The position numbers and the translations under genes were made by a program. From Actinoallomurus bryophytorum (GTDB lineage Bacteria; Actinomycetota; Actinomycetes; Streptosporangiales; Streptosporangiaceae): DNA of 64,000 nucleotides. Location of the stretch: positions 4,402,001 to 4,466,000 of the forward strand of contig NZ_VFOZ01000001.1 in assembly GCF_006716425.1 (NCBI RefSeq), given 5' to 3'. The stretch's first letter is position 1; the number at the start of each line of letters is the position of its first letter. Shown here one piece after another: positions 39,016 to 47,682 of the stretch. The notes beneath the pieces were generated by a model. The model was given only the letters and a program-made list of their open reading frames with translations, had not been told where the DNA came from and made no database searches.

Positions 39016-41046
39016 GTGAGCGAATCCACCGAACTCCTCACGGACGCAGCTACAACGGCGCCTGACGCCACCCTTGCCGAAGAAGCGGCTCCTGCTGCTC
39101 CGCGGCGTCGTCGCACGGGCACCGGCCTGTCGGCGATGGTGCTCCCTGAGCTGAAGGCTCTTGCCTCCAGCCTCGGCATCAGCGGTACGGGCGGCATGCG
39201 CAAGAGCCAGCTCATCGCTGCCATCCAGGAGAAGCAGGCGCAGAACGCCGGCGGCGGTGAACAGGCGACATCGTCGCCTAAGACTGACAGTGAGCCCACG
39301 ACGGCGCCGGTCGCCGCCGACACGGAGAGCGGCGAGTCCCAGCAGCCACGGCGCGAGCGCGCGCCCAGGCGCGACGACGCCGCCCAGCAGGGCCAGCAAG
39401 AAGTCCGGAGCGACTCGGCCGAGTCCGAGGGCGGTGCCCGTGAGGGCGGCGCTCGCGAGAACGGCCGCGAAAACGGCCGCGAAAACGGCCGCGAGGGCGG
39501 CGGTCGTGACGGCGGGGGCCAGCAGCGTCAGCGCCAGCGCAGCAACCGCAACCGCGACGGCCAGCGCGACGACAACCGTGGCCAGCGCGATGACAACCGC
39601 GGGCAGCGCGATGACAACCGCGGGCAGCGCGATGACAACCGTGGCCAGCGTGACGACAACCGCGGGCAGCGCGACGACAACCGCGGACCGCGCGATGACA
39701 ACCGTGGCCAGCGCGATGACAATCGTGGTGGCGGCCAGGGTCAGCGCGGCGGCCAGGGTCAGCGCCAGAACGACCGGCAGAACGACCGCCAAAACGATGA
39801 CGACGACGAGAGCGGTGGCCGCGGCCGCAGGCGCGGACGGTTCCGCGAGCGCAACCGTGGCCGTGGAACCGGCCGGGAGCGTTACGGCGAGGCCGACCCG
39901 GTGATCGCCGAGGACGACGTCCTGATCCCGGTCTCCGGCATCCTGGACATCCGCGACAACTACGCGTTCGTCCGTACGACGGGCTACCTGCCGGGCCCGC
40001 AGGACGTCTACGTCTCGCTGGCCCAGGTCCGCAAGTACGGCCTGCGCAAGGGCGATGTCATCACCGGCGCCGTGCGGCAGCCGCGCGACGGTGAGCGGCG
40101 CGAGAAGTTCAACGCGCTCGTCCGCCTCGACACGGTCAACGGCATGGAGCCGGAGCAGGCCAAGGGCCGCGTCGACTTCTCCAAGCTGACCCCGCTCTAC
40201 CCGCAGGAGCGGCTGCGCCTCGAGCAGGACCCGACGCAGCTCACCACGCGGATCATCGACTTCGTCGCCCCGATCGGCAAGGGCCAGCGCGGCCTGATCG
40301 TCTCGCCGCCCAAGGCCGGCAAGACGATGGTGCTGCAGGCGATCGCCAACGCGATCACCAAGAACAACCCCGAGTGCCACCTGATGGTCGTTCTGGTCGA
40401 CGAACGCCCTGAAGAGGTCACCGACATGCAGCGGACGGTGAAGGGCGAGGTCATCCACTCGACCTTCGACCGCCCGGCGGACGACCACACCATGGTCGCC
40501 GAGCTGGCCATCGAGCGTGCCAAGCGGCTCGTCGAGCTGGGCCACGACGTCGTCGTGCTGCTCGACTCGATCACCCGCCTCGGCCGGGCGTACAACCTGG
40601 CGGCCCCGGCCAGCGGCCGGATCCTGTCCGGTGGTGTGGACTCCACGGCGCTGTACCCGCCGAAGCGGTTCTTCGGCGCCGCCCGCAACATCGAGAACGG
40701 CGGCTCGCTGACGATCCTCGCGACCGCGCTGATCGAGACCGGCTCCCGTATGGACGAGGTCATCTTCGAGGAGTTCAAGGGCACCGGCAACATGGAGCTG
40801 CGGCTGCGCCGCGAACTCGCCGACAAGCGCGTGTTCCCGGCCATCGACGTCGACGCCTCCAGCACTCGTAAGGAAGAGATCCTGATGGCTCCGGAGGAGC
40901 TGCGGGTCGTCTGGCAGCTGCGACGGGTGCTTCACGCGCTCGATGCCCAGCAGGCCCTGGAGCTCCTCATCGAGAAGATGAAGGAGACCGGGTCCAACGC
41001 CGAGTTCCTGCTCCAGGTGCAGAAGACCACGCTGAACAACGACTGA
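39016..41046 (+). CDS. rho: Transcription termination factor Rho with expanded N-terminal insertion
   Basis: 676 residues, long for Rho (about 420 in E. coli). Residues about 35-75 are the Rho N-domain (LPELKALASSLGISGTGGMRKSQLIAAIQ). Residues about 80-290 are a disordered Arg/Asn/Asp/Gln/Gly insertion containing eight GQRDDNR repeats, typical of actinobacterial Rho and able to bind RNA. Then comes the cold-shock-like RNA site (GILDIRDNYAFVRTTGYLPGPQDVYVS), the Walker A loop SPPKAGKT (about 432), the Walker B LLDSITRLGRAYN and the Q-loop/R-loop region. It is an RNA-dependent ATPase translocase. GTG 39016 follows GGGAAGGA. Confidence 0.97.
   Translation: MSESTELLTDAATTAPDATLAEEAAPAAPRRRRTGTGLSAMVLPELKALASSLGISGTGGMRKSQLIAAIQEKQAQNAGGGEQATSSPKTDSEPTTAPVAADTESGESQQPRRERAPRRDDAAQQGQQEVRSDSAESEGGAREGGARENGRENGRENGREGGGRDGGGQQRQRQRSNRNRDGQRDDNRGQRDDNRGQRDDNRGQRDDNRGQRDDNRGQRDDNRGPRDDNRGQRDDNRGGGQGQRGGQGQRQNDRQNDRQNDDDDESGGRGRRRGRFRERNRGRGTGRERYGEADPVIAEDDVLIPVSGILDIRDNYAFVRTTGYLPGPQDVYVSLAQVRKYGLRKGDVITGAVRQPRDGERREKFNALVRLDTVNGMEPEQAKGRVDFSKLTPLYPQERLRLEQDPTQLTTRIIDFVAPIGKGQRGLIVSPPKAGKTMVLQAIANAITKNNPECHLMVVLVDERPEEVTDMQRTVKGEVIHSTFDRPADDHTMVAELAIERAKRLVELGHDVVVLLDSITRLGRAYNLAAPASGRILSGGVDSTALYPPKRFFGAARNIENGGSLTILATALIETGSRMDEVIFEEFKGTGNMELRLRRELADKRVFPAIDVDASSTRKEEILMAPEELRVVWQLRRVLHALDAQQALELLIEKMKETGSNAEFLLQVQKTTLNND
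39454..39489 (+). repeat. 12-bp tandem repeat in rho
   Basis: Three copies of CGCGARAACGGC encode ArgGluAsnGly units in the disordered insertion of Rho; copies 2 and 3 are identical. Confidence 0.85.
39559..39726 (+). repeat. 21-bp tandem repeat (8 copies) in rho
   Basis: Eight head-to-tail 21-bp units encode GQRDDNR (unit 7 is GPRDDNR). Most differences between units are synonymous third-position changes, showing selection on the peptide after expansion. Confidence 0.95.
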
Positions 41047-41067: not shown

Positions 41068-41102
41068 GAGGACGCCCCGGGTCATTCGCCCGGGGCGTCC
41101 TC
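41068..41102 (+). terminator. Terminator of rho
   Basis: Perfect 14-bp inverted repeat GAGGACGCCCCGGG (41068-41081) and CCCGGGGCGTCCTC (41089-41102) with a 7-nt loop, 21 bp after the rho stop. Confidence 0.85.
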
Positions 41103-41120
41103 GCGTTCCGGACACCGGGA

Positions 41121-41185
41121 CCCGTGGTCAAGACCCGTGGTCGGGGCCTGTGGTCGGGGCCTGTGGTCGGGGCCCGTGGTGGGGA
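41121..41185. repeat. 13-bp tandem repeat, five copies
   Basis: Five contiguous 13-bp units of consensus CCYGTGGTCGGGG run into the palindrome at 41176-41197. Each unit contains TGGTCG, close to the palindrome half-site TGGTGG. They lie between the rho terminator and the first sensor kinase gene. Confidence 0.85.
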
Positions 41186-41197
41186 TAGCCCCACCAC
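41176..41197. promoter_or_regulatory. Palindromic operator candidate upstream of kinase 1
   Basis: GTGGTGGGG-ATAG-CCCCACCAC, a perfect 9-bp dyad. It contains TGGTGG-N8-CCACCA (41177-41196), a pattern also found at 45349-45368 upstream of kinase 2 and the exporter. Confidence 0.7.
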
Positions 41198-41284
41198 GAC
41201 GACGCTGGGACGCTCCATGGTGCGCGGGGCTGCCGTTAGCGAGGCTGTAGCCGTACGGTTGATGGCGGCGCGAAAGGGACAGCG

Positions 41285-42586
41285 GTGAACAGCACGCTCG
41301 AAATGACACCCTCCCAGCGGAGGTTCGGGCCGCTGAGGTTGGCGAGGGAATCGCTGACCTGGCGGTCGGCGGCTTACCTGCTGTTGCACTTTCCTCTGGG
41401 ACTGGTCTACTTCGTCGGCCTGGTCGTGCTCCTGTCGGTCTCCGCGGGCACGCTGGTCATCTGGGTCGGTGTGCTCGGCTTCGCCCTGGCCATGGTTCTC
41501 TGGCGCGCCGCCGCGATCCTCGAACGCCGGCTCGTGAAGGCGGCCTTCGGCGTCGAGATCCCCAGGCCGTACCGCGCGATGCCCGAGGGCGCGAAGCCGG
41601 TCAGGAAGCTGAGGACGATGGCCGGCGACCCGGCCACCTGGAAGGACCTGGTCTACCTCTTCCTGGTCTTCCCGCTGGGCATCTTTGAGTTCGTGCTGTC
41701 GGTCGGCCTCTGGTCCGCCTCCGCCGGGCTCATCGCGACACCGCTCACGATCAACTGGCAGCAGGCGGGCTTCCTGTACCTCACGATCGGCGGCCGGCAG
41801 ATCTGGTTCGACAACACGATCGCGACCCTGCCGGCGATCCCACTCGGGATAGCGCTCGCCGGGGCGACCCTGTACGTCGTCCGTGGTGTCGGCTACGCCC
41901 ACGGCGCGCTCGCCCGCTATCTCCTCGGCCCGAACGAGACCCAGCGACTGCGCGTGCGTACGGCACAGCTCCAGGCGAGCCGGGCACGCGGGGTGGACGC
42001 CGCCGAGGCCGAGCGCCGCCGCATCGAGCGTGACCTTCACGACGGCGCCCAGCAGCAGCTGCTCGCGGTGGCGATGGACCTCGGCCGGGCGCGGGCCAAG
42101 CTGGAGAGCGACCCCGTGGCCGCGCAGGAGCTGATCCAGCAGGCCCACGCCGGCGCCAAGGACGCCATCGTGGAGCTGCGCAACCTCGCGCGCGGCATCT
42201 ACCCCGCGATCCTCACCGACCGCGGCCTGGACGCGGCGATCTCCGCGGTGGCCGCGCGCGGCGAGGTGCCGGTCACCGTTGACGTCGACCTGCCCACCCG
42301 GCCGCCCGCGGCGGTGGAGAGCATCGCGTACTTCATCGTCTCCGAGGCCCTCACCAACATCAATAAGTACGCCCGCGCCACCCACGCCTCCGTGCGCGTC
42401 AGCCGCGACCAGAACTGGATCGTGGTGGAGGTCTCCGACAACGGCGTCGGTGGCGCGAGCGCCTCTCCCGGCGGCGGTCTGGCCGGTCTGGCCGACCGTG
42501 CGGCCGGGATCGACGGGATCCTCACCGTCAACAGCCCGCTCGGCGGCCCCACGGTGATCAGGGCGGATCTTCCCTCCGTCTGGTGA
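41285..42586 (+). CDS. Sensor histidine kinase, DesK/NarX-like (kinase 1)
   Basis: 433 residues. Residues 25-210 form a putative-sensor domain with two pairs of membrane segments (YLLLHFPLGLVYFVGLVVLL; DLVYLFLVFPLGIFEFVLSV and following). HisKA_3 has ERRRIERDLHDGAQQQLLAVA with the phospho-accepting His near 251. The ATPase domain has SEALTNINKYARATHA (N box), VSDNGVGGA and GGGLAGLADRAAGIDG. It should phosphorylate the NarL-type regulator encoded 95 bp downstream. GTG 41285 follows AAAGGGA. The palindrome 88 bp upstream suggests autoregulation. Confidence 0.92.
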   Translation: MNSTLEMTPSQRRFGPLRLARESLTWRSAAYLLLHFPLGLVYFVGLVVLLSVSAGTLVIWVGVLGFALAMVLWRAAAILERRLVKAAFGVEIPRPYRAMPEGAKPVRKLRTMAGDPATWKDLVYLFLVFPLGIFEFVLSVGLWSASAGLIATPLTINWQQAGFLYLTIGGRQIWFDNTIATLPAIPLGIALAGATLYVVRGVGYAHGALARYLLGPNETQRLRVRTAQLQASRARGVDAAEAERRRIERDLHDGAQQQLLAVAMDLGRARAKLESDPVAAQELIQQAHAGAKDAIVELRNLARGIYPAILTDRGLDAAISAVAARGEVPVTVDVDLPTRPPAAVESIAYFIVSEALTNINKYARATHASVRVSRDQNWIVVEVSDNGVGGASASPGGGLAGLADRAAGIDGILTVNSPLGGPTVIRADLPSVW

Positions 42587-42602
42587 GCGAACCGTGACGA
42601 AA

Positions 42603-42625
42603 AGCCCGGCGCACCGCCGGGCTTC
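42603..42625. terminator. Hairpin between kinase 1 and regulator 1
   Basis: AAGCCCGGCG (42603-42612) and CGCCGGGCTT (42616-42625) with a 3-nt loop, followed by CTCTC. It would terminate or attenuate the kinase transcript; the regulator gene has its own -10 at 42669. Confidence 0.75.
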
Positions 42626-42668
42626 TCTCACGAACGGCGGGACGTGTCCGTCTTCCGGCGCATTCCTC

Positions 42669-42674
42669 TAGGCT
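42669..42674 (+). promoter_or_regulatory. -10 element TAGGCT, leaderless type
   Basis: TAGGCT begins 13 nt before GTG 42682, without a ribosome site between them. Confidence 0.5.
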
Positions 42675-42681
42675 GTGGGCC

Positions 42682-43329
42682 GTGCGGGTCGTGATCGCGG
42701 AAGACGCAGTGATGTTGCGGGAAGGCCTGATCCGGCTCCTCGCCGACGAGGGCATCGAGACGGTGGCCACGTCGGACGACGGCCCAGGCCTTGTCGCGAA
42801 CGTCGAGGAGCACCGTCCTGACCTCGCCATCGTGGACGTACGCATGCCCCCGTCCTTCACCGACGAGGGGCTGCGCGCCGCGCTGGAGGCGCGGCAGCGG
42901 GTGCCGGGCACCCCGATCCTCGTCTTCTCCCAGTACGTCGAGGAGCGCTACGCCACCGACCTCATCGGCGGCGGCGCCGACGGCGTCGGCTATCTGCTCA
43001 AGGAGCGTGTGGCCGACGTGGCGGAGTTCCTCGGCGCGGTCCGCAGGGTGGCCGAGGGCGGCACGGTGATCGACCCGGAGGTGATCGCCCAGCTCCTGGG
43101 CCGCCGGCGCCGTGGCGACCGGCTGGAGGCACTGACCCCCCGCGAACGCGAGGTGCTCGGCCTGATGGCCGAGGGCCTGTCCAACGCGGCGGTGGCCCGC
43201 CGGCTCGTCGTCACGGACGGCGCGGTGGAAAAGCACATCTCCAACATCTTCCTCAAACTCGGCCTCCAGCACACGAACAGCACGCACCGCCGCGTCATGG
43301 CGGTCCTCGCCTACCTCGGCCAGAGCTGA
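42682..43329 (+). CDS. NarL/LuxR-type response regulator (regulator 1)
   Basis: 215 residues. Receiver: E7-D8, phospho-acceptor D52 in LAIVDVRMPPSF, and Lys in YLLKERVADV. The C-terminal LuxR helix-turn-helix is LTPREREVLGLMAEGLSNAAVARRLVVTDGAVEKHISNIFLKLGL. It pairs with kinase 1. It ends 1 bp before the stop of regulator 2, which points the other way. About 60 percent of positions look the same in regulator 2 by eye, so the two are paralogues. The target is probably the shared palindrome. Confidence 0.93.
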   Translation: MRVVIAEDAVMLREGLIRLLADEGIETVATSDDGPGLVANVEEHRPDLAIVDVRMPPSFTDEGLRAALEARQRVPGTPILVFSQYVEERYATDLIGGGADGVGYLLKERVADVAEFLGAVRRVAEGGTVIDPEVIAQLLGRRRRGDRLEALTPREREVLGLMAEGLSNAAVARRLVVTDGAVEKHISNIFLKLGLQHTNSTHRRVMAVLAYLGQS

Positions 43330-43330
43330 C

Positions 43331-43981
43331 TCAGGAGCCGTTCAGATAGGCGAGGACGGCGAGAACGCGGCGGTTGTCGTCGTCCGAGGGCGGCAGGTCC
43401 AGCTTGAGAAAGATGTTCGACGTGTGCTTGGCGATGGCCCGCTCGGTGACGACGAGGCGCTGCGCGATCGCGACGTTGGAACGCCCCTCCGCCATCAGGC
43501 CGAGCACCTCGCGCTCGCGCGGGGTCAGGTCGCCGAGCGGCTCGTCCCGTGACTTGCGGGCCAGCAGCTGGGAGATCACCTGCGGGTCCATCGCCGTGCC
43601 GCCCGCGGCCACCCGGCGTACGGCGTCGACGAACTGGTCGGCGTCGAACACCCGGTCCTTGAGCAGGTAGCCCACGCCGCCGCTGCCATCGGCCAGCAGC
43701 TCGCGGGCGTACAGCTGCTCGACGTGCTGCGAGAGCACGAGCACCGGCAGCCCCGGCACCTCACGACGGGCGTGCAGGGCCGCCTGGAGGCCCTCGTCGG
43801 TGAAGGTCGGCGGCAGGCGTACGTCGACCACGGCCACGTCCGGCTTGACCGTGAGCAGAGCCCTGGTGAGTTCCGGCCCGTTGTCGACCGCGGCCGCGAT
43901 CTCGAAGTCGTACGCCTCAAGGAGCCGGATGAGGCCGTCTCTCAGCAGGAACAGATCCTCGGCGAGGACGACACGCATCAC
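43331..43981 (-). CDS. NarL/LuxR-type response regulator (regulator 2)
   Basis: 216 residues. Receiver with E8-D9, phospho-acceptor D53 in VAVVDVRLPPTF and YLLKDRVFDADQF. The DNA-binding domain is LTPREREVLGLMAEGRSNVAIAQRLVVTERAIAKHTSNIFLKLDLPPSDDDNRRVLAVLAYL. It differs from regulator 1 mostly in the recognition-helix flank (TERAIAKHTS against TDGAVEKHIS). It starts 13 bp after the kinase 2 stop, so the two form an operon. Confidence 0.93.
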   Translation of the reverse strand: MMRVVLAEDLFLLRDGLIRLLEAYDFEIAAAVDNGPELTRALLTVKPDVAVVDVRLPPTFTDEGLQAALHARREVPGLPVLVLSQHVEQLYARELLADGSGGVGYLLKDRVFDADQFVDAVRRVAAGGTAMDPQVISQLLARKSRDEPLGDLTPREREVLGLMAEGRSNVAIAQRLVVTERAIAKHTSNIFLKLDLPPSDDDNRRVLAVLAYLNGS

Positions 43982-43994
43982 GGCTCCTGAGTCA

Positions 43995-45263
43995 CTAAGG
44001 CTGTGGCGAGGACAGCTCGCATGGCAGCTCCATGGTCACCATCGTCGGACCCCCCACGGGACTGTTGAGGGCGAGGACTCCGTCGAATGTACCGATTCGC
44101 CGCTCGATGCCGCTGATTCCCGTGCCATGGGACATGGCGGCGCCGCCCTGCCCGTCATCGGTGATCACGATGCGGAGCATGCCGTTCTCGTGCCGCAGGT
44201 CCAGCCAGACACGCCGCGCGCCGGAGTGCTTGGCCGCGTTGGTGAGGATCTCCGAGACCGCGAAGTAGGCGGCCGACTCGACCGGCGCCTCGATGCGGCC
44301 GGGGATCTCGGCCGACACCTCGGTCTGGAGCGGGCTGGCCATCGCGAGGGCGCGTACGGCGTCTCCCAGCCCGCGTTCGGCCAGGACCGGAGGGTGGATG
44401 CCACGGACCAGGTCGCGCAGCTCGGTGAGGGCCTTGGAGGAGGACTCACGCGCCTCGGACAACAGGACCTTCGCCTTCTTCGGGTCGCGTTCGAGCAGGT
44501 GCTCGATGGCGCCGAGGCTCATGCCCATGGCCACGAGCCGGGCCTGCGCTCCGTCGTGCAGGTCGCGCTCGATCCGGCGCAGCTCGGCGGCCTGGGAGTC
44601 GAGGGCGTCGGAGCGGGTCTCGGTGAGGCGCGCCACGCGCAGCTCCAGCTCACGCTCGTGCGTCGGAGCGAGCAGGGCGGCGGTCAGCCGTGAGTGCAGG
44701 TGCATGGTCTTCGGGGTCAGCCAGAGGCCCAGCCCCGCGTACACGAAACCGACGAGTCCCGCGATCGTCGCGGTCGCCTGGTCGCTGATGGGCACGAAGG
44801 TGTACCACTCGTTACCGCCCGAGTGCACGATCGGGCGCCACACGCCGAGTGCGAGGACCCAGCCGTACGGGCCGTAGAAGGGGAGCGAGAAGGCGAAGAT
44901 CGCCAGGGTGAAGCCGGCCGTCGCGTCACAGATCATCCACAGCAGGTCACGCCAGGTCGCCCGGTCCATCATGACCCAGCGGTACCGCTCCAGCGCCCCG
45001 ATCAGGCCGCCCTGGAAGTGCGGCTTCGGCCGGTACGGCTCCTTGATCTCCACGCCGAACCACCGGTACGCCAGCCGACGGCGCAGGTTGGCGTGCGAAC
45101 GGGCGAGACGCGCGACCAGAGGTACGAGGACGACGCCGATGACCACCGGAGTCAGCGAGATCGAGACGACCATCAGGATGAACAACACCAGCGATCCGAC
45201 CATGGCAAGCAGGGCCAGGCCCAGGCCGCGTACGGCCGCCAGTGCCGTGGTTCGAATGTTCAT
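43995..45263 (-). CDS. Sensor histidine kinase, DesK/NarX-like (kinase 2)
   Basis: 422 residues. Putative-sensor domain with four membrane segments (ALAAVRGLGLALLAMVGSLVLF; VVIGVVLVPLV; AGFTLAIFAFSLPFYGPYGWVLALGV; ATIAGLVGFVYAGLGLWL). HisKA_3 ELRRIERDLHDGAQARLVAMG has the His near 235. The ATPase domain has SEILTNAAKHSGARRVW, ITDDGQGGA and GTGISGIERRIGTFDG. ATG 45263 was chosen because GGAGG (45268-45272 region, minus strand) is too close to the ATG at 45266. It is divergent from the exporter gene, across a 36-bp palindrome. Confidence 0.92.
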   Translation of the reverse strand: MNIRTTALAAVRGLGLALLAMVGSLVLFILMVVSISLTPVVIGVVLVPLVARLARSHANLRRRLAYRWFGVEIKEPYRPKPHFQGGLIGALERYRWVMMDRATWRDLLWMICDATAGFTLAIFAFSLPFYGPYGWVLALGVWRPIVHSGGNEWYTFVPISDQATATIAGLVGFVYAGLGLWLTPKTMHLHSRLTAALLAPTHERELELRVARLTETRSDALDSQAAELRRIERDLHDGAQARLVAMGMSLGAIEHLLERDPKKAKVLLSEARESSSKALTELRDLVRGIHPPVLAERGLGDAVRALAMASPLQTEVSAEIPGRIEAPVESAAYFAVSEILTNAAKHSGARRVWLDLRHENGMLRIVITDDGQGGAAMSHGTGISGIERRIGTFDGVLALNSPVGGPTMVTMELPCELSSPQP

Positions 45264-45340
45264 CATTCCTCCCGATCCCGGTCTTATTTTGCCTTCTCGA
45301 GTCTCGCGAGTGGGCCGTCGCCGGTCACTGGGGTCAGCGA

Positions 45341-45376
45341 CCCGGCGATGGTGGTGCCGGCACCACCATCGCCGGG
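45341..45376. promoter_or_regulatory. 36-bp perfect palindrome between kinase 2 and MMPL exporter
   Basis: Left arm CCCGGCGATGGTGGTGCC (45341-45358) is the exact reverse complement of the right arm (45359-45376), with no loop. It contains TGGTGG-N8-CCACCA at 45349-45368, identical in spacing to the site upstream of kinase 1. It is placed to control both divergent genes. Confidence 0.8.
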
Positions 45377-45471
45377 GTTCACATCCACCGTGGAGCGGGG
45401 GCTGACCGGCTGGGGTGGGCCGCGGCGGATTTCTAGCGTCTCGGGCAACCCCAAAGAGTCGGGAGACCCTC

Positions 45472-47682
45472 ATGAGACGCCACATCGGCAGGCACACGCC
45501 ACACTCTTCCTTCGCCGCGAGGATCGGCGGCTGGAGCGTGCGGCACCGGAAGACCGCGATCATCGGCTGGCTGCTGTTCGTGATCGCCGCCAGCATGATC
45601 GGCGCGATGGCCGGTCAGGTCACGATGAAACCAGAGCAGAACGGCGCCGGCGACTCCCTCCGCGCCGAGAAGATCCTCGCCGACGCGGGGATCCAGCACC
45701 CGGCCGGCGAGATGGTGATCGTGCACAGCCGTACGCCGGACGGCTGGCGCGACGCGGCGGGGGCCGTCGCGGCGGCCGTACGCGCGACCGGCCGTGTCGA
45801 CCACCTCCAGCCCGCCCTGGCCGCCAAGGACGGACGGGACGGACTGGTCCGCTTCCAGATGACGGGTGACCCTGCGACCGCGCCGGACCGGGTACAGCCC
45901 GTCCTCGACGCCGTCGACCGGGTCAAGGCCGACCATCCGGAGGTCACGATCGGCCAGTTCGGCGACGCGAGCTCGGGCAAATGGCTGAACGACATCCTGA
46001 GCAAGGACTTCGCCCAGGCCGAGTGGACCGCGGTGCCGCTCGCGCTCGGCATCCTGCTGATCGCGTTCGGGGCGCTGCTGGCGGCCGTGCTGCCGGTCGG
46101 CCTCGCGCTGACCGCCTTCGTCGCGGCGAACGGGCTGCTCGCCGTGGCCAGCCACAGCCTGCACGTCTTCGACACGACGAGCTCGGTGATGCTGCTCATG
46201 GGCCTGGCGGTCGGCGTGGACTACTGCCTGTTCTACATCCGCCGCGAGCGCGACGAGCGGGCCGCGGGCCATGACAAGGAGACCGCGCTGCGCATCGCCG
46301 CCGCGACCTCCGGCCGGTCCGTGCTGGTCTCCGGGCTCACGGTCATGCTCGCCATGGCGGGCATGTTCCTGTCCGGCCTGCTGCTGTTCAAGGGCTTCGC
46401 GCTGGCCACCATGCTGGTCGTGCCGATCGCGATGCTCGGCTCGGTGACCGTCCTGCCGGCGCTGCTGTCCCTGATCGGGGACAAGGTGGAGTTCGGCCGC
46501 GTCCCGTTCCTGGGCCGCCGCCGGGGCCGTCGCACCGAGAGCGGCCGCCTTTCGGCCGCCATCCTCCGCCCGGTGCTGGCCCGTCCCGGGATCTTCGCGG
46601 TGCTGGCCGCCGGGGTGCTGGTCGTGCTGGCCGCGCCGGCGGTGGGCATGCACACCGAGAGCCTCGGCCTCGACCAGCAGATGTCCAAGGACACCCCGAT
46701 GGTCGACGCGTACCAGCGGATCACCCGCGCGTTCCCGGGCGGGCCGGCGCCCGCGCAGGTGGTCGTCAAGGCCACCGACATCCGGTCGCCGCAGGTCACC
46801 CAGGCCATCGCCGGCCTGAAGAGCGAGGCCGGCCGCAGCCGGGAGTTCGGCGCCCCGGTCACCGTGACCGTGCACGCGGAGCAGAACATCGCCCAGATCG
46901 ACGTGCCGCTCGCCGGCGACGGCACGGACGCGGTCTCCGAGCACGCCCTCGCGACGCTGCGGGACCGGCTGGTGCCGGCGACCGTCGGCGGCGTGGCGAC
47001 GGCGTACGTCACCGGTCAGCTCGCCGGGTCGCTCGACTTCACCGCTCAGCTGCGCCACGACATCGTGCCGGTGTTCGCCTTCGTGATGATCGTGACGTTC
47101 CTGCTGATGCTGGTCTCGTTCCGGTCCGTGGCCATCGCGGTGACCGCGATCCTGCTCAACCTGCTGTCGGTGGCGGCGGCGTACGGCGTCATGGTCGCGG
47201 TCTTCCAGCACGGCTGGGGCGCGGGCCTGGTCGGCGCCGAGCCGGTCGGCGCGATCGAGTCCTGGATGCCGCTGTTCGTCTTCGTGGTGCTGTTCGGGCT
47301 GTCGATGGACTACCACGTGTTCGTCGTGTCCCGGATCCGCGAGGCCCGCGACCGCGGCCTGCGTACCCGCGACGCCGTGTCGCACGGGGTCCGCTCCAGC
47401 GCCGGAGTCGTCACCAGCGCGGCCGTGATCATGGTCGCCATCTTCGCGGTGTTCGGGACGCTGTCGATGCAGGACATGAAGCAGATGGGAGTGGGGCTGG
47501 CGGTGGCCGTGCTGCTGGACGCGACCGTCGTACGCGCGGTGCTGTTGCCGTCGGCGATGGCCCTGCTCGGCGAGGCCAACTGGTACCTGCCCCGCTGGCT
47601 CGGCTGGCTGCCGAAGGTCTCCCACGGCGAGGAGGAGGTCCCTCCGAGCCCTCTGGAACACCCGGTCACGGTCGGGCGTTGA
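45472..47682 (+). CDS. MMPL family transporter
   Basis: 736 residues, RND/MMPL architecture: helix 1 (TAIIGWLLFVIAASMIGAM), a first outer loop of about 150 residues, helices 2-6 with LMGLAVGVDYCLFYIRRERDE (proton-relay Asp and Tyr), a second outer loop (GMHTESLGLDQQMSKDTPMV...), and helices 8-12 with VVLFGLSMDYHVFVVSRIRE, the second relay Asp-Tyr. Relatives export lipids, siderophores or peptides using the proton gradient. ATG 45472 follows GGGAGA. Divergent from kinase 2 and probably under its control. Confidence 0.93.
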   Translation: MRRHIGRHTPHSSFAARIGGWSVRHRKTAIIGWLLFVIAASMIGAMAGQVTMKPEQNGAGDSLRAEKILADAGIQHPAGEMVIVHSRTPDGWRDAAGAVAAAVRATGRVDHLQPALAAKDGRDGLVRFQMTGDPATAPDRVQPVLDAVDRVKADHPEVTIGQFGDASSGKWLNDILSKDFAQAEWTAVPLALGILLIAFGALLAAVLPVGLALTAFVAANGLLAVASHSLHVFDTTSSVMLLMGLAVGVDYCLFYIRRERDERAAGHDKETALRIAAATSGRSVLVSGLTVMLAMAGMFLSGLLLFKGFALATMLVVPIAMLGSVTVLPALLSLIGDKVEFGRVPFLGRRRGRRTESGRLSAAILRPVLARPGIFAVLAAGVLVVLAAPAVGMHTESLGLDQQMSKDTPMVDAYQRITRAFPGGPAPAQVVVKATDIRSPQVTQAIAGLKSEAGRSREFGAPVTVTVHAEQNIAQIDVPLAGDGTDAVSEHALATLRDRLVPATVGGVATAYVTGQLAGSLDFTAQLRHDIVPVFAFVMIVTFLLMLVSFRSVAIAVTAILLNLLSVAAAYGVMVAVFQHGWGAGLVGAEPVGAIESWMPLFVFVVLFGLSMDYHVFVVSRIREARDRGLRTRDAVSHGVRSSAGVVTSAAVIMVAIFAVFGTLSMQDMKQMGVGLAVAVLLDATVVRAVLLPSAMALLGEANWYLPRWLGWLPKVSHGEEEVPPSPLEHPVTVGR

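Follow-up and report, generated by a model that had tools for sequence, protein, structure and literature searches.

The 64,000-nucleotide stretch of Actinoallomurus bryophytorum DNA analyzed here (contig NZ_VFOZ01000001.1; hereafter the window) carries two sensor kinases, each associated with a NarL/LuxR-type response regulator (RR), and an exporter of the MMPL family that faces the second kinase. A palindrome is found upstream of each kinase, and we argue that these two sites are probably the cognate operators of the two regulators, one of which (RR2) would also control lipid genes in the manner of the DesK/DesR system. The genes and the two sites are distributed as follows:

41285..42586, plus strand: kinase 1, with a PF13796 sensor domain, HisKA_3 and HATPase
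42682..43329, plus strand: RR1, NarL/LuxR-type response regulator, helix GAVEKHIS
43331..43981, minus strand: RR2, NarL/LuxR-type response regulator, helix RAIAKHTS
43995..45266, minus strand: kinase 2, with a PF13796 sensor domain, HisKA_3 and HATPase
45472..47682, plus strand: MMPL-family exporter 1
41175..41198, no strand: site 1, full 24-bp dyad in which 11/12 pairs match and one central pair is mismatched
41178..41195, no strand: core of site 1, predicted RR1 operator GGTGGGGATAGCCCCACC
45341..45376, no strand: site 2, full perfect 36-bp palindrome
45350..45367: core of site 2, predicted RR2 operator GGTGGTGCCGGCACCACC, between kinase 2 and exporter 1

RR1 and RR2 both combine a PF00072 receiver with a PF00196 GerE/LuxR helix-turn-helix (HTH), each above cut-off, and are 60% identical, when the two kinases are 35% identical. 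In kinase 2, the HisKA_3 domain corresponds to PF07730, and the PF13796 domain comes with four hydrophobic 19-mers, putative membrane segments.

Two Conserved Palindromes Upstream of the Kinases

The initial annotation of this DNA had pointed to a TGGTGG-N8-CCACCA motif upstream of both kinases. The two 20-mers are indeed found exactly, at 41177-41196 and 45349-45368, with no further copy in the window and none in any of 100 dinucleotide shuffles. Both are intergenic, as had been proposed, the first between the rho stop at 41046 and the kinase-1 GTG at 41285, the second between the kinase-2 ATG at 45266 and the exporter ATG at 45472. As for the longer dyads in which they were said to be embedded, the perfect 36 bp of site 2 are confirmed, whereas for site 1 a 24-bp dyad with a single mismatch is a better description than the perfect 22 bp.

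Taken literally, the motif is not enriched: the 9.47-Mb genome has 4 exact copies for 6 of the reversed control, and the 8 genomes of the genus have 0-4 copies each for 3-6 of the control. This random genome-wide density, which the initial annotation had itself named as an argument against its proposal, means that the motif would by density alone pass as chance, and we accordingly discarded the literal TGGTGG-N8-CCACCA as the functional unit. What rescues it is the genomic context of three of the four copies, which precede kinase 1, kinase 2/MMPL exporter 1, and a second MMPL exporter, the latter copy (C1:3188102) being directly upstream of its gene and 1.26 Mb away. For the fourth copy (C2:630661), no kinase- or MMPL-type neighbor was recognized among the open reading frames, the only features inspected there. 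A literal motif at chance density can thus still prove functional when footprinting resolves it.

For site 1, the footprint was drawn from the best 30 of the 164 family genomes with a kinase-1 match. The consensus GGTGGGGNTAGCCCCACC occurs with at most 3 mismatches before 28 of these 30 orthologs, 16 of those 28 without mismatch. In seven genomes of the genus, the rho-kinase 1 gap has retained a dyad whose core is GGGNTAGCCC and whose outer arms are variable. Of the two halves of the site across the kinase-1 loci, the right one, TAGCCCCACC, is the more constant; the flanking T...A of site 1 is particular to this genome among the 28 kinase-1 sites. Within the A. bryophytorum genome, GGTNGGGNTAGCCCNACC has its only exact copy at site 1, and allowing one mismatch adds the reverse reading of site 1 and C1:1830303. 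The latter RR1-type site stands 81 nt before a DUF4097 (Toastrack) gene (L080:1501-1518; gene at 1600-2385).

For site 2, we considered the 330 nt upstream of 37 kinase-2 orthologs and the frame made of the 8 GGTG/CACC bases. All 8 bases are present before 30 of the 37 (shuffle mean 0.60), so that conservation upstream of orthologous kinase genes, on which the operator proposal had been made to depend, is found for both kinases at the level of consensus and frame (28/30 and 30/37, respectively). The count rises to 32/37 for sites with 8/8 bases, or 7/8 with a symmetry of at least 7/9 pairs (shuffle mean 0.84). A bare threshold of at least 7/8 frame bases was tried and abandoned, as shuffles reach it in 11.8 of the 37 windows. 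In the wider kinase-2 family, represented by 79 named loci (80 were retrieved, of which L198 was left out for too little upstream sequence), GGTG-N10-CACC occurs within 400 nt upstream in 50 of the 79, against a shuffle mean of 1.83 and maximum of 6, and against 2, 0, and 0 of 79 in coding-window controls. The other spacers from 4 to 16 are found in 0-8 loci, except spacer 7 with 27, an excess that we ascribe to the repeated GTG within GGTGGTGC half-sites.

Two observations may be recorded beside these counts. In genome G004 (L036:1065-1403), the exact site-2 20-mer is kept although kinase 2 faces prfA there and not an exporter. In the A. bryophytorum genome, an RR2-like match with 1 mismatch (C1:3645718) falls inside long open reading frames.

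Exporters and a Desaturase as Candidate Targets of RR2

The second MMPL exporter (exporter 2) is 67% identical to exporter 1, and a site-2-class operator precedes it in all 6 genomes of the genus with enough upstream sequence (five at 8/8, one at 7/8 with symmetry 7), a count that leaves out G005, in which a contig end cuts the upstream sequence. By the same rule, the MMPL paralogs 3 and 4 score 0/7, one of these controls (MMPL3 of G007) being measured from inside the gene.

In G001, G005, and G007, kinase 2 faces a fatty-acid desaturase gene instead of an exporter (PF00487 was checked in G005 and G007). This desaturase, des1, has an 8/8 operator away from kinase 2 in G000, G003, and G006, and a 7/8 operator in G001 and G007, which is the shared divergent kinase-2 site itself. 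In G004 and G005 the des1 site is degraded to 6/8, so that conservation is not full: 5 of the 7 kinase-2 genomes of the genus keep it. In G002, no operator is found before des1, and no kinase-2 ortholog is found anywhere in the assembly. On the contig concerned (C179, L272), RR1 is directly followed by the desaturase, with kinase 2, RR2, and the operator all absent. Desaturase paralogs score 0/12 by the same rule (12 of 13 loci, L289 being cut by a contig end and left out).

Over 90 kinase-2-family loci, the divergent neighbor is an MMPL exporter in 16 cases and a desaturase in 6, three of these six loci belonging to Actinoplanes, Mangrovihabitans, and Phytohabitans. In more distant genomes, 3 of 5 MMPL genes beside kinase 2 have an 8/8 site.

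Two Probable Operator Classes in One Frame

The outer frame GGTG-N10-CACC is common to both classes of sites, and it is the inner bases that differ. Half-site positions 5-7 read GGG in 54 of 56 kinase-1 half-sites but in 4 of the 100 kinase-2-family half-sites, 61 of which have GTG or TAC there. The regulators differ in parallel: the RR1 helix is GAVEKHIS in 27/27 readable loci (3 of 30 were unreadable), and the residue that is E there is replaced by A in 33 of the 34 readable RR2 loci and by T in the remaining one (3 of 37 were unreadable). This position (E vs. A/T) aligns with a recognition-helix lysine of NarL, which touches bases there. Furthermore, a search for the two kinases in the same 394 class genomes at E 1e-110 recovers kinase 1 in 6, kinase 2 in 34, and both in 4; the two kinases thus mostly occur apart, which implies that the two operators are kept independently. 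Inner bases, helices, and independent retention together argue, at the level of sequence comparison, for cognate operators rather than for one shared operator. The identical 6-bp arms noticed at the outset then amount to the shared frame, extended in this genome by a coincident T/A flank and G.

The initial annotation had taken as simplest the view that a single operator is bound by both regulators, the two systems and the exporter being cross-regulated. The common GGTG...CACC frame, the identical arms in this genome, and the 60% identity of RR1 and RR2 speak for it, as do the few sites of the genus with one GGTGGGG half (before exporter 2 of G007 and des1 of G003), and such cross-talk has a precedent in Bacillus subtilis, where YvfU acts on the DesR operator according to passages of PMC7726353. 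We nonetheless consider it rather unlikely, and no longer the simplest reading, because the inner bases split by class (54/56 vs. 4/100 GGG), the recognition helices differ consistently, and each class persists without the other system. Of that earlier proposal, what stands is that the sites are, judging by their conservation, very probably operators of the two regulators and that the exporter belongs to the circuit; the sharing and the cross-regulation find no support, although some cross-binding may occur.

The sites before exporter 2 of G007 and des1 of G003 are in fact mixed, with one GGTGGGG and one GGTGGTG half. They could be bound by RR1-RR2 heterodimers, in a combinatorial code with a common GGTG...CACC frame whose three inner bases would be read by one helix residue, as heterodimers of such regulators are described for BldM-WhiI in Streptomyces in parts of PMC4125116. 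We hold this to be improbable; if true, it would integrate two membrane sensors on lipid genes.

Geometry of the Putative Promoters

The sequences that follow the two sites, and the elements facing exporter 1, suggest the following putative promoter features:

41217..41220, plus strand: conserved ATGG block (minus-35 region), starting 21 nt after the site-1 operator
41242..41246, plus strand: AGGCT, putative minus-10 of kinase 1, ending 51 nt after the operator
45300..45304, minus strand: AGACT, putative minus-10 of kinase 2, ending 50 nt after the operator
45324..45329, minus strand: AGTGAC, conserved minus-35-like block of kinase 2
45401..45409, plus strand: GCTGACCGG, proximal element in many target promoters
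45434..45439, plus strand: TAGCGT, putative minus-10 of exporter 1, ending 72 nt after the operator

A box of the form A[GCA][AG]CT with its end 50-52 nt beyond the operator occurs 26 times among 28 kinase-1 loci (44-58 nt scanned) and 41 times among 50 kinase-2-family loci (90 nt scanned). If transcription is assumed to start about 7 nt beyond the box, the center of the operator would fall near -66, a position that fits an activator; in several relatives, the kinase-2 ATG itself stands at about the distance of this putative start. The RR1-type site before the DUF4097 gene has the same geometry as that of kinase 1, with an ATGG block starting 21 nt after it and a TAGCGT box ending 51 nt after it.

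Of the 16 target promoters, 14 have a TANNGT whose end lies 72-76 nt beyond the operator and the other 2 have it at 50 nt, these positions of about 50 and 73 nt being about two helical turns apart. An element resembling GGTGC..ACCGG or GCTGACCGG is found 31-34 nt after the operator in 11 of the 16 (with an ad hoc pattern), and it is possible that the copy at 45401-45409 is a second RR2 half-site.

A Proposed Circuit and Its Remaining Alternatives

Taken together, we propose that sites 1 and 2 are probably the cognate operators of RR1 and RR2 and that RR2 also controls lipid genes. Phosphorylated RR1 dimers would bind GGTGGGGNTAGCCCCACC and RR2 dimers would bind palindromes of the GGTG(GTG/TAC) type, both sites being centered about 66 bp upstream of the putative transcription start of the cognate kinase-regulator operon, from which position each regulator would activate its own operon. 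In the genus, RR2 would also act on the divergent exporter 1, in trans on exporter 2, and on the desaturase, be it beside kinase 2 as in three relatives or elsewhere as in four genomes. Like DesK/DesR, kinase 2/RR2 would thus monitor the state of the membrane, and it would adjust both the desaturation of acyl chains and the export of lipids, a role of the MMPL family. RR1, whose targets are less clear, would chiefly govern its own expression and that of one DUF4097 protein. In this circuit, the sites with their conservation, fixed spacing, and co-distribution are observed, and the binding of the regulators, the activation, the start sites, the signal, and the exporter substrates are the inferred parts.

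Several observations weigh against this proposal. The site is missing or weak at a number of loci: with up to 3 mismatches allowed, L058 and L064 still show no kinase-1 operator, site 2 of G005 is weak (6/8), and 29 of the 79 named kinase-2-family loci, many of them paralogs, lack an exact GGTG-N10-CACC. A bare 7/8 frame, with symmetry below 7, also occurs in 5/7 MMPL-paralog and 6/12 desaturase-paralog controls. At the helix position that separates RR1 from RR2, the wider family has S, K, I, G, or D too, and the class comparisons as a whole are uncorrected for kinship. The A[GCA][AG]CT and TANNGT patterns were picked after viewing the sequences, the promoters being deduced from conservation, and a consensus sigma-70 scan of this stretch found no promoter. 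Finally, an 8/8 site is lacking before 11 of the 12 MMPL genes that do not neighbor kinase 2 in the more distant genomes, which confines the evidence for the trans regulon to a single genus.

A different dimeric regulator encoded elsewhere, for instance of the TetR type, might happen to control both kinase operons in place of RR1 and RR2, since perfect palindromes of such length are typical of TetR-type operators too. This would be harder to reconcile with sites that track kinase-RR pairs across families, with inner bases that go with the RR helix, and with the lack of a site before des1 in G002, which is the sole genome of the genus without kinase 2; moreover, Pfam identifies no TetR-type or other such regulator among the five genes that separate rho from prfA. 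We regard the involvement of such a regulator as quite improbable.

Still less credible is the idea that the palindromes act as RNA hairpins (terminators or leader structures) rather than as DNA operators, which the long GC-rich dyads could suggest, along with G-U pairs that, by eye, keep some site-1 arms paired. A search for intrinsic terminators (a GC hairpin and a T-run) made no terminator-like call at either site, and both sites lie upstream of conserved promoter-like boxes at a fixed distance and so would not be part of the kinase transcripts; we rejected the hairpin candidate on these two grounds. In addition, rho has its own hairpin further upstream (41068..41102, plus strand, 14-bp arms), which is separate from the operator and would be the probable end of the upstream transcript, a similar dyad being found after rho in several relatives. 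That the sites are chance palindromes in GC-rich DNA, as the control-level density of the literal pattern might suggest, can be practically dismissed in view of their conservation, the spacing controls, and the fixed distances.

Relation to Known Systems

The best parallel for kinase 2/RR2 is DesK/DesR of Bacillus subtilis (paralogs YvfT/YvfU), which likewise associates a HisKA_3 kinase with a membrane input and a NarL-type regulator, and which has a desaturase as target, as predicted here from the position of the operator. DesK (YocF) accounts for 6 of the 7 matches of kinase 2 among solved structures, including the best one (6.2e-11), these matches covering the kinase core only. A further likeness, described in parts of PMC7726353, lies in paralogous systems beside transporter genes with similar promoters. 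The differences are that the predicted targets here include MMPL exporters and that the predicted operator is a GC-rich 18-bp palindrome, GGTG-N10-CACC, also found before the kinase operon; the PF13796 sensor domain of kinase 2 may be a further one. All in all, kinase 2/RR2 most likely works like DesK/DesR, judging from domains and sites, without being filed as a proven member of that system.

RR1 and RR2 share the receiver and LuxR-type HTH make-up of DevR/DosR, VraR, LiaR, and NarL. These regulators recognize palindromic sites too, whose half-site sequences differ from those found here, and the helix residues of NarL and DevR differ in alignments from those of the present regulators.

By description rather than by orthology, the pairs can also be likened to CrsR/CrsK of Actinosynnema pretiosum, in which a 217-aa NarL regulator is paired with a kinase of 429 aa bearing an N-terminal sensor domain. 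The reported CrsR targets are antibiotic genes, unlike those predicted here, and the authors of that study found no conserved motif for the regulator (PMC12623338). PF13796 kinases near biosynthetic clusters are mentioned in a passage of PMC10663231. The main text of a review of Streptomyces coelicolor two-component systems (PMC9739842) contains no mention of MMPL, palindrome, inverted repeat, or binding motif, and the literature searches made here, by operator sequences and combined terms, returned no paper that gives the PF13796 kinase group an operator. With regard to this group, the predicted operator, a small lipid regulon, and a candidate position for specificity in the helix would provide a first handle on PF13796 kinase/NarL pairs, whose operators can now be sought in other genomes; and if the proposal is true, desaturation and MMPL export share one circuit.

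Other Features of the Locus and Its Relatives

The A. bryophytorum genome encodes seven PF13796 kinases with NarL-type regulators, 4 of which have GGT-N12-ACC upstream, when L096, L097, and L098 do not. Two more of these kinases, L095 (C1:3776391) and L100 (C1:2424740), have related upstream dyads, GGTGGGGCTGGCCACACC and GGTGGCGTTAGCACCACC.

Next to site 1, a 26-nt GTGGTCGGGGC-type repeat occurs in four overlapping copies, at a period of 13 nt, over positions 41116-41180. These copies run into the site and are not seen in six aligned relatives of the genus; they are possibly extra half-sites or the slippage origin of its left arm. Lastly, in four relatives (L035, L037, L039, and L040), kinase 1 is separated from RR1, or RR1 from RR2, by about 1.6-3.3 kb of extra sequence.

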